Shown here: positions 6,001 through 7,115 of the stretch, piece after piece
Layout: every line of letters starts with the position of its first letter
Numbering within the stretch: position 1 is the stretch's first letter
Origin: Nereida ignava
GTDB taxonomy: Bacteria; Pseudomonadota; Alphaproteobacteria; Rhodobacterales; Rhodobacteraceae
Length of the DNA stretch: 64,000 nt
NCBI RefSeq assembly: GCF_001049735.1
Contig: NZ_CVPC01000003.1
Coordinates: forward strand, 124,001 to 188,000
Direction: 5' to 3'
Position numbers and translations under genes: made by a program
Notes under the pieces: generated by a model
What the model was told of the DNA's origin: nothing
The model's database searches: none
The model's input: only the letters and a program-made list of their open reading frames with translations

Positions 6001-6027
6001 AAGGCGCTCCTTCGGGGCGCCTTTTTT
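6001..6027 (+). terminator. Rho-independent terminator of mrp
   Basis: GGCGC(T)CC pairs with GGGCGCC around a UUCG tetraloop with one bulged T, followed by six T residues. It sits 27 nt after the mrp stop codon and isolates mrp from the dcw cluster. Confidence 0.9.
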
Positions 6028-6048: not shown

Positions 6049-6073
6049 TGGGAAATCATGGGAGTGATAGGTA
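6049..6073 (+). promoter_or_regulatory. Candidate distal MraZ box (TGGGA direct repeats)
   Basis: TGGGA at 6049-6053 and TGGGA at 6059-6063 are separated by exactly 5 nt, and a degenerate AGGTA follows in phase at 6069-6073. E. coli MraZ binds TGGGN repeats separated by 5 nt, so the period fits one turn of B-DNA. It lies about 550 bp upstream of mraZ, far from the presumed promoter. Confidence 0.45.
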
Positions 6074-6161
6074 GTTTTCTATCTGTATCTCGTAGATTTT
6101 ATCAAATAACCGCTCAAATTAGGTGGGATAGGTCGGCTTTTTTAGCTGAAGTGATGAAAAT

Positions 6162-6176
6162 TGGGATTTTTTGGTA
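6162..6176 (+). promoter_or_regulatory. Candidate second MraZ box
   Basis: TGGGA at 6162-6166 and TGGTA at 6172-6176 keep the same 10-bp period across a T5 spacer. It is weaker than the other two clusters because one repeat is imperfect. Confidence 0.3.
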
Positions 6177-6322
6177 ATTATTTGAACAATAATGCTACTA
6201 CTACATTTAGTGTTATGGGCCATATGCTTCTACATTATGATGTCATTAAGGCGGTCTAAAGTATAGTTTGCTTCATGATTTACTAAGTTTTTAAGGCGTT
6301 TAGCTCAAAAAAAGTTGTTGCT

Positions 6323-6347
6323 TCCCATAAATTCCCATGTATTCCTA
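6323..6347 (-). promoter_or_regulatory. Candidate MraZ operator at the dcw leader promoter
   Basis: Three in-phase repeats read on the minus strand as TGGGA (6333-6337), TGGGA (6323-6327) and TAGGA (6343-6347), each pair separated by 5 nt. This is the spacing known for E. coli MraZ boxes. The array ends just before the start expected for the UpsM-like transcript, if that RNA is about 200 nt long. A repressor bound here would therefore overlap the promoter. A -35-like TTGTTG or TTGCTT (6315-6323) and a weak -10-like TATTCC (6340-6345) can be proposed but are not strong. Confidence 0.6.
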
Positions 6348-6352
6348 AATCT

Positions 6353-6558
6353 ATCGAAGCGGTGAGCACACATTTAAGGGGCGTCTTAAGAACCCCACCC
6401 GGCGACCGAAAAAGGTTTCATACAGGCCTCACTTCTTCGATCAACGAGATCCGGCGCGTGAGCGAGCAGACATCCCCCCAGGTGGCGCGCGCAGTCGGAC
6501 TTCCCCGCAAAGGGGCACAGGCGGGTTGATCAGTGGCAGCAGATCAGCCCGCCTTTTT
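6353..6558 (+). ncRNA. upsM: UpsM-like sRNA from the mraZ leader
   Basis: In Rhodobacter sphaeroides the dcw cluster is preceded by a long 5' leader from which the abundant sRNA UpsM (about 200 nt as I recall) is produced by termination before mraZ. Here the same position shows a GC-rich, hairpin-rich stretch ending in a very strong intrinsic terminator (6520-6558) 62 nt before the mraZ start. Inner hairpins include GGGG/CCCC at 6378-6396 and CCCC-GCAAA-GGGG at 6503-6515. The 3' end is well defined by the terminator. The 5' end is inferred from the length of the Rhodobacter RNA and is approximate. No reading frame with a start signal fits in it. Confidence 0.7.
6520..6558 (+). terminator. Intrinsic terminator ending the UpsM-like RNA
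   Basis: GGCGGGTTGATC (6520-6531) pairs over 12 positions with GATCAGCCCGCC (6542-6553), one G-U wobble included, followed by TTTTT. It lies inside the dcw leader, so dcw transcription must come from read-through or from a promoter after it. Confidence 0.93.
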
Positions 6559-6604
6559 AATTAAAGGGCCGCGCATTTCAGTGCGTAGGTCGCAAGGTAG
6601 CAAC

Positions 6605-6618
6605 AGGAGCCGGTTCCT
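6605..6618 (+). promoter_or_regulatory. Hairpin over the mraZ ribosome binding site
   Basis: AGGAG (6605-6609) is the likely Shine-Dalgarno sequence of mraZ, 11 nt before the ATG. It can pair with TTCCT (6614-6618) around a CCGG loop, with one G-U pair, which would hide the site. The stem is short, so the effect is uncertain. Confidence 0.4.
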
Positions 6619-6620
6619 CG

Positions 6621-7115
6621 ATGGTCCGTGCGTTCAGAGGCGAATACCACCAGAAGGTGGATGCAAAGGGCAGGGTCTCAATTCCCGCGCCCTTTCGGCG
6701 TGTCTTGGAGGCAGGTGATCCGGCGTGGGAAAATGGCAAGTTGCCAGAGTTTGTTCTAGTTTACGGTGATGATCGGCGTGCCTTTCTTGAGGGGTTCACT
6801 GTGGATGGTATGGCTTCAGTTGATGCTAAAATTCGCAAATTACCCCGTGGTTCCAAAAAGCGTCACGCTTTGTCGCGCCTTTACAGTGGTCGTTCGGTAA
6901 CGCTTAGCGTTGATGAAACGGGGCGGTTCGTTTTGTCCCCCAAGCTGCGCGAAAAGTTGGGTATTACGAACGAGGCCTACTTCATCGCCAACAACGATAC
7001 ATTTGAAATTTGGACGCCTGAGACATTCGAAGCTGAGAATAACCTCGCTTTGGATGACGAGGATTTCGATCCGGATTTGGACCCGTCCGTTTATCTTGAT
7101 GGGGATGAGGAATAA
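6621..7115 (+). CDS. mraZ: MraZ, transcriptional regulator of the dcw cluster
   Basis: 164 residues with two tandem SpoVT/AbrB-like MraZ domains: residues 1-60 open with FRGEYHQKVDAKGRVSIPAPFR, and the second copy holds LSVDETGRFVLSPKLREKLGI. The acidic tail (DDEDFDPDLDPSVYLDGDEE) is lineage-specific. MraZ forms a ring-shaped oligomer that binds TGGGN repeats and represses its own operon in E. coli. Three clusters of such repeats lie upstream here, the nearest near the leader promoter. It is the first gene of the dcw cluster, 3 nt before rsmH. Confidence 0.97.
   Translation: MVRAFRGEYHQKVDAKGRVSIPAPFRRVLEAGDPAWENGKLPEFVLVYGDDRRAFLEGFTVDGMASVDAKIRKLPRGSKKRHALSRLYSGRSVTLSVDETGRFVLSPKLREKLGITNEAYFIANNDTFEIWTPETFEAENNLALDDEDFDPDLDPSVYLDGDEE

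Follow-up and report, generated by a model that had tools for sequence, protein, structure and literature searches.

Phased arrays of TGGGA repeats upstream of mraZ in Nereida ignava and its relatives, and a possible DNA loop formed by MraZ

MraZ is among the most conserved bacterial regulators. The DNA analysed here, a stretch of 64,000 nucleotides from Nereida ignava (the window), raises the question of why the block between mrp and mraZ (mraW is the next gene) carries three arrays of TGGGA direct repeats, one at the mraZ promoter (C3) and two others (C2 and C1) 161 and 274 bp further upstream. The original prediction suggested that a ring-shaped MraZ oligomer could loop the DNA between such arrays. 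Judging from the comparison with relatives described below, we consider it probable that C1, C2, and C3 are three operators of MraZ and that MraZ regulates its own operon through a stereospecific DNA loop.

Arrays, promoter, and leader in the window

The three arrays are predicted as follows:
6049..6073, plus strand: predicted MraZ array C1 (distal), TGGGA-N5-TGGGA followed by a degenerate AGGTA; it adjoins the mrp terminator
6162..6176, plus strand: predicted MraZ array C2 (middle), TGGGA-N5-TGGTA, 113 bp past C1
6323..6347, minus strand: predicted MraZ array C3 (promoter-proximal, reversed), TGGGA-N5-TGGGA-N5-TAGGA, 161 bp past C2

Direct reading of the sequence and pattern scans found every cluster coordinate of the original prediction to be correct. 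The boxes of C1 are TGGGA at 6049 and 6059 and AGGTA at 6069 [PWM score 24.8 vs. a 99% background of 6.0], and those of C2 are TGGGA at 6162 and TGGTA at 6172, the latter making this array degenerate in the window (score 12.1); C3 scores 26.9. Within each array the boxes lie on an exact 10-bp grid, which is the TGGGN repeat with 5-nt spacing by which an MraZ operator may be recognized.

Taken alone, the window could be read as holding chance repeats, since the pair pattern with at most one mismatch is not significant there: 7 matches were found against a shuffle mean of 3.5, and 8 of 100 shuffles reached 7. We give this explanation practically no credence and rejected it, because the arrays are rare genome-wide and are conserved in relatives. 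The exact TGGGAN5TGGGA occurs 3 times in the 2.88-Mb genome, two of these being C1 and C3, and TGGGAN5TGGKA occurs 5 times, three of which are C1, C2, and C3.

The neighboring features are the following:
6001..6027, plus strand: intrinsic terminator of mrp, the upstream gene (stem 6001-6023)
6318..6346, plus strand: apparent core promoter of the mraZ leader, with -35 TTGCTT at 6318-6323, a 17-bp spacer, and a -10-like ATTCCT at 6341-6346
6353..6620, plus strand: long UpsM-like mraZ leader with a terminator-like hairpin at about 6520-6559; its start site is a predicted one
6621..7115, plus strand: mraZ, 164 aa (Pfam MraZ PF02381, E = 3.9e-15)

C3 overlays the apparent core promoter, with its boxes over the -35, the 17-bp spacer, and the -10. 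The original prediction had placed this array at a presumed leader promoter, and across the family C3 does lie over a conserved -35/-10-like sequence, the C3-anchored logo reading TTGatTcCCATGAATTCCCATGgcATcCcT (n = 147); we infer the assignment of the -35 and -10 elements. A simple promoter and terminator scan of the window listed neither the C3 promoter nor the hairpin near 6520-6559. The 268 nt before mraZ fold with -101.2 kcal/mol (z -2.9), and the segment 5900-7200 had no match in Rfam at E up to 1. A long leader and a terminator-like hairpin lie between the predicted promoter and mraZ, as in an UpsM-type leader. In R. sphaeroides, the mraZ promoter was reported to start 268 nt before the gene, giving a 268-nt leader (the sRNA UpsM) with a terminator (PMC5089854), and the start expected from the C3 promoter falls at about the same place.

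The same genome encodes an MraZ whose fold appears to be intact in a structure model (mean pLDDT 83.6). The model matches the M. genitalium entries 9r4j and 9sz7 with Z scores of 16.5 and 16.2 (rmsd 3.5 over 138 residues and 3.2 over 136); both entries were released in 2026 and hold, according to their titles, M. genitalium MraZ with its promoter and with a 4-box promoter. The mrp product matches Pfam ParA/NUBPL.

Conservation of the arrays and helical phasing of their distances

For the comparison across the family, 164 mraZ upstream regions were gathered (112 fetched, 41 from MraZ-search loci, and 11 named Rhodobacteraceae loci), of which one (L111) was dropped for having <700 bp upstream; another (L021), with only 199 bp upstream, had been excluded beforehand. 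The remaining 163 regions represent 152 family genomes, nearly all of different genera, and the 11 named loci, which indicate that the family is Rhodobacteraceae. MraZ was found in 236/236 family genomes, and the regions cover 151 of these 236, plus G034, plus the named loci; as gene places were available for part of the genomes, the most diverged MraZ proteins are under-represented in this sample. Two genomes (G000 and G001) share one genus, and the named loci may share genera with other genomes, while no two regions are identical. Positions relative to the mraZ start may err by a few codons for the 112 fetched regions, which leaves the distances between arrays unaffected.

When pairs of the form TGGGH-Nk-TGGGH (k = 0-25) were counted in the 163 regions, the spacing k = 5 dominated, with 141 pairs on the plus and 57 on the minus strand; the next most frequent spacers gave 36 on the plus (k = 14) and 32 on the minus strand (k = 25), and the latter count is probably due to the third box of C3. 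The k = 5 pairs form three peaks upstream of mraZ, corresponding to C1 (plus strand, about -700 to -560), C2 (plus strand, about -520 to -420), and C3 (minus strand, about -360 to -260), with single strays elsewhere. Arrays were called with a position matrix that had been built from the pairs in this set of regions, at a 99% threshold set from 815 background windows. By these calls C1 is present in 115/163 regions, C2 in 123/163, and C3 in 147/163, and all three are present in 95/163, with their 10-bp period, order, and orientation retained across many genera. Loss of this period in close relatives, which had been named beforehand as the outcome that would speak against the original prediction, is not what the relatives show. 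The three arrays are not universal: C2 and C3 were called together in 23 regions, C1 and C3 in 18, C1 and C2 in 2, C3 only in 11, C2 only in 3, and none in 11. The pattern TGGGAAWTCATGGGA is common to the logos of all three arrays, and as an exact string it occurs 4 times in 41 whole genomes, always no more than about 600 bp upstream of an mraZ match.

Outside the family, we looked at 35 genomes of the same class whose MraZ loci were returned among the best MraZ matches. A minus-strand array close upstream of mraZ was present in 34/35 of them (none in L202), and a distal plus-strand pair in 1/35 (L199); C3 is therefore likely to be the ancestral operator, and C1 and C2 look like an addition made in the family. 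The reading in the original prediction is amended in this respect, as C3 would be an ordinary ancestral operator inside the promoter. The exception, L199, is an alphaproteobacterium of another family whose plus-strand pairs lie 268-308 bp further upstream than its minus-strand pairs, and an independent origin of these distal pairs is possible. Separately, three genomes (G181, G112, and G034; loci L159, L160, and L032) carry TGGAA or TGGTA/TGGTT next to TGGGA among the minus-strand boxes close to mraZ and showed no distal arrays upstream of it; the specificity of MraZ may have shifted in them.

The arrays might belong to a TGGGA-binding protein other than MraZ, which is the predicted binder in this family. 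We regard this as very improbable. A C3-like array stands close upstream of mraZ in nearly all of the outgroup, as just described, and E. coli MraZ reportedly binds TGGG repeats separated by 5 nt, i.e., TGGGN5 repeats. Furthermore, B. cenocepacia MraZ was reported to bind a repeat-bearing fragment, with four 7-nt repeats and 3-nt spacers (PMC7761207).

The distances between the arrays differ between genera, mostly by whole helical turns. For C1-C2, 81 of the 97 distances fall at 112-115, 122-127, 133-138, 143-148, 155-160, or 166-168 bp, no genome falls at 116-121, 128-132, 139-142, 149-154, or 161-165 bp, and the remaining 16 are 69, 98, 101, and 171-223 bp. For C2-C3, 109/118 fall at 138-141, 148-151, 159-161, 168-173, or 180-181 bp and 9 elsewhere, one class dominating (76/118 at 168-173 bp). 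The window, with 113 and 161 bp, is on a peak in both cases. Vector strength was R = 0.68 at a period of 10.85 bp for C1-C2 (n = 97), 0.72 at 10.5 bp for C2-C3 (n = 118), and 0.50 at 10.75 bp for C1-C3 (n = 113), vs. maxima of 0.34, 0.29, and 0.31, respectively, in partner-permuted nulls. As controls, the distances from the arrays to the mraZ start were unphased (R 0.10-0.16), and R was 0.19 for the distance from the mrp stop to C1 (n = 59). Within 2.5 bp of a peak, the peaks being fitted on the same data, lie 87/97 C1-C2 and 111/118 C2-C3 distances vs. 46 and 48% expected. The phasing was robust to four thresholds, to dropping the named loci, and to the use of strict pairs (n = 18 each; R 0.83 and 0.68). 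The 95% confidence interval of the period is 10.68-11.02 bp for C1-C2 and 10.13-11.16 bp for C2-C3, the latter period being weakly determined because a single class dominates.

Two trivial sources of this phasing were considered. Register slip of 10 bp inside an array was rejected on two counts: the phase is unchanged in regions that have only one pair per array (R 0.66 for C1-C2, n = 73; 0.72 for C2-C3, n = 105; 0.50 for C1-C3, n = 84), and the C1-C2 step is 10.85 rather than 10 bp. Shared ancestry of the intervals is unlikely, as intervals of equal length have a median identity near background (30% for C1-C2 and 32% for C2-C3; maxima 0.43 and 0.61, a few C2-C3 intervals being alike) and the number of turns has changed repeatedly. 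On a quick tree of the mrp C-terminus, a single protein with 71 rows and hence rough change counts, the number of turns between C1 and C2 changes at least 28 times across 43 tips, 40 of them in phase, and that between C2 and C3 at least 13 times across 49 tips, all 49 in phase.

The spacing of the arrays is conserved modulo about 10.5-10.9 bp, and the sequence between them is not, which is what a loop predicts and what is expected of looping operators. This part of the looping suggestion in the original prediction stood up, whereas occupation of the distal arrays by MraZ and closure of a loop are what we infer from it. We conclude that selection acts on the angle between the arrays, which is the mark of protein contacts made across a loop or wrap. 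The absolute angle is not fixed by these data, since misjudging the helical repeat by 0.1 bp would, over 12 turns, move it by about a tenth of a turn.

Alternatively, the distal arrays may bind MraZ with no loop, serving as independent operators for other promoters or storing (titrating) MraZ. Conservation would be expected of the arrays on this account too, and C2 stands without C1 and C3 in the 3/163 regions mentioned above. However, the family logos show no conserved -35/-10-like pattern at C1 or C2, unlike C3, and a common helical phase is not required of independent sites. We therefore find this alternative unlikely and favor the loop.

NrdR-like, methylation-type, and other sites in the block

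Sites of other regulators likely share the block with the arrays in most relatives, which is a second amendment to the original prediction. Between C2 and C3 of the window we noted two of them:
6199..6212, plus strand: NrdR-box-like palindrome 1, 12/14 to CACWAYWWRTWGTG, 37 bp past the start of C2
6231..6244, plus strand: NrdR-box-like palindrome 2, weaker (10/14), 32 bp past box 1

The palindrome found between C2 and C3 in the family resembles CACWAYATRTWGTG and fits the NrdR box. A palindrome of this kind scores >10 in 115/118 C2-C3 intervals vs. 3/118 reversed controls, the matrix having been trained on these intervals themselves. With a fixed consensus (≥11/14), it was found in 105/118 C2-C3 intervals vs. 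4/163 leaders, 9/163 mrp stretches, and 3/96 C1-C2 intervals. A second box follows at 28-34 bp in 55/105 vs. 3/105 at 35-41 bp, 3 at 21-27 bp, and 8 at 42-48 bp. In the 73 intervals of 169-173 bp, the preferred palindrome starts are -134, -103, -70, and -39 from C3, and a further peak at -17 overlaps the -35 region, so that up to four preferred NrdR-like positions, about 31-33 bp apart, lie between two MraZ arrays. NrdR was reported to bind paired boxes with 14-17 or 24-27 bp spacers (PMC12051234), and the paired boxes between C2 and C3 would suit the 14-17 bp class. An NrdR gene is encoded in the genome.

Exact copies of CACWAYATRTWGTG were found at 16 distinct sites in 12 of the 37 genomes searched. 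Eight of the 16 could be identified, from gene fragments with scores below the full-length cut-offs: 6 are upstream of nrdJ (L213, in the genome of the window, and L210, L211, L214, L216, and L217), and 2 are upstream of a CcrM-like gene (L220 and L221, at 1501; the genome of the window and a genus neighbor). The latter hint that NrdR may control the cell-cycle methyltransferase CcrM. None of the 16 exact sites in these 37 genomes is at mraZ, where the best box of the window is 12/14, and the mraZ boxes are thus weaker than the nrdJ boxes.

The C1-C2 interval has a different content. GAWTC (CcrM type) occurs in 86/97 C1-C2 intervals (e.g., L040, L055, and L059) vs. 35/118 C2-C3 intervals and 10/163 leaders, and YGAKTCG, the GcrA-type motif, in 68/97 C1-C2 intervals vs. 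5/118 and 0/163. The GAWTC sites are phased with C1 (R 0.51) and with C2 (R 0.53; n = 154) vs. null maxima of 0.27 and 0.29, and remain so when only the first site of each interval is used (R 0.41 and 0.47, n = 86); their distance to the mraZ start is unphased (R 0.08). GANTC is absent from the mrp-mraZ block of the window, including the C1-C2 interval at 6064-6161. GAACN7GAAC, presumably a LexA-type box, is present in 15/97 C1-C2 intervals vs. 0-1/97 for spacers of 5, 6, 8, and 9, and is absent from the window. The CtrA-type TTAAN7TTAA was tried as a candidate and discarded, with 1 palindromic site (2 counts over both strands) in the C2-C3 intervals. CenR has been reported to give a ChIP signal upstream of mraZ without the CenR motif, TGAN8TGA (PMC9275681).

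These sites bear on an explanation that overlaps with looping by MraZ, namely that the phase is kept by one wrapped nucleoprotein complex made mainly of other proteins, with MraZ as one tenant; its builders could be NrdR between C2 and C3, proteins at the GcrA/CcrM sites between C1 and C2, or a nucleoid protein. The frequency of the NrdR-like motif between C2 and C3, its preferred steps, and the phasing of GAWTC with both C1 and C2 are in its favor, and the NrdR-like boxes, about 31 bp apart, could account for part of the phasing of C2 with C3. On the other hand, the window keeps the phase with no GANTC between mrp and mraZ, and IHF-type sites are rare (4 in the C2-C3 intervals and 0 in the C1-C2 intervals), for which reason IHF bending was rejected. 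We hold such a wrap, as the main keeper of the phase, to be rather doubtful, though less so than independent distal operators, and go on with the loop closed by MraZ.

A looped control region and its relation to known systems

In the model that we propose, MraZ bound to C3 would block RNA polymerase at the promoter of mraZ and the dcw leader, which is ordinary autorepression. C1 and C2, in the opposite orientation to C3, would keep a constant helix face both toward one another and toward C3. One ring-shaped MraZ oligomer, or a pair, could then bridge the arrays, and the DNA between them would form one or two loops of about 110-170 bp. An octameric ring was reported for MraZ of Mollicutes (PMC7761207; PMC5282649). 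The loop would lift the local concentration of MraZ at the promoter and make repression steeper, and it may be tuned by the GANTC/GcrA-type sites and NrdR-like boxes present in most relatives. Repression would not be the sole input, as NtrX activates the mraZ operon in R. sphaeroides, where it was reported to bind upstream and where transcripts fall in an ntrYX mutant (PMC7240162).

A broader picture can be drawn tentatively, with considerably less confidence than the loop itself. The 300-330 bp before the division operon may in most of the family be a looped control complex, in which MraZ rings clamp the three phased arrays, CcrM-methylated GANTC sites (GcrA-type YGAKTCG) on one face between C1 and C2 signal that the replication fork has passed, and NrdR boxes between C2 and C3, up to four of them, report the dATP state; opening of the loop would then tie UpsM RNA and dcw expression to DNA replication. 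It is weakened slightly by the finding that none of the 16 exact NrdR-type sites in the 37 genomes is at mraZ. If the picture is true, NrdR would coordinate replication and division in this family through its boxes at nrdJ, ccrM, and mraZ, and the NrdR-like and GANTC sites in the block would offer a concrete route linking nucleotide supply and replication to division.

In the open-licence literature, whose silence is not proof of absence, we found no paper on distal MraZ arrays, on their phasing or looping, or on NrdR at mraZ. What appears to be new is that the inter-array distances vary between genera mostly by whole helical turns.

The E. coli mraZ promoter carries direct repeats on a 10-bp period. 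The same period was reported for the mraZ promoters of B. cenocepacia and Mollicutes (PMC7761207; PMC5282649; PMC8475190). Here too, the mraZ promoter has direct repeats with this period. Where those reports describe a single promoter array, however, this region holds three arrays across 300 bp in helical phase, and two of the three are distal and opposite in orientation to the promoter array. The mraZ promoter and the 268-nt leader with its terminator resemble those of R. sphaeroides UpsM (PMC5089854); the words "repeats," "binding site," and "TGGG" are absent from the main text of that study, in which the arrays seem not to be described. The NrdR-like sites resemble the box pairs of ribonucleotide reductase genes in their palindrome and in a box-to-box distance of about 31 bp (PMC12051234), while they differ in lying upstream of mraZ between two MraZ arrays and in being weaker than the nrdJ copies.

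About 100 genera form a natural series across which the operator distance has drifted mostly by whole turns, and this is strong comparative evidence for looping by MraZ. In the lac, gal, and ara systems, looped multi-operator repression depends on distal operators phased with the promoter operator and on an oligomeric regulator. The mraZ region is like them in that distal operators stand in helical phase with a promoter operator, under a predicted oligomeric regulator; it is unlike them in that its operators would be direct-repeat arrays of MraZ, and in that looping is suggested here by the comparison of genomes.
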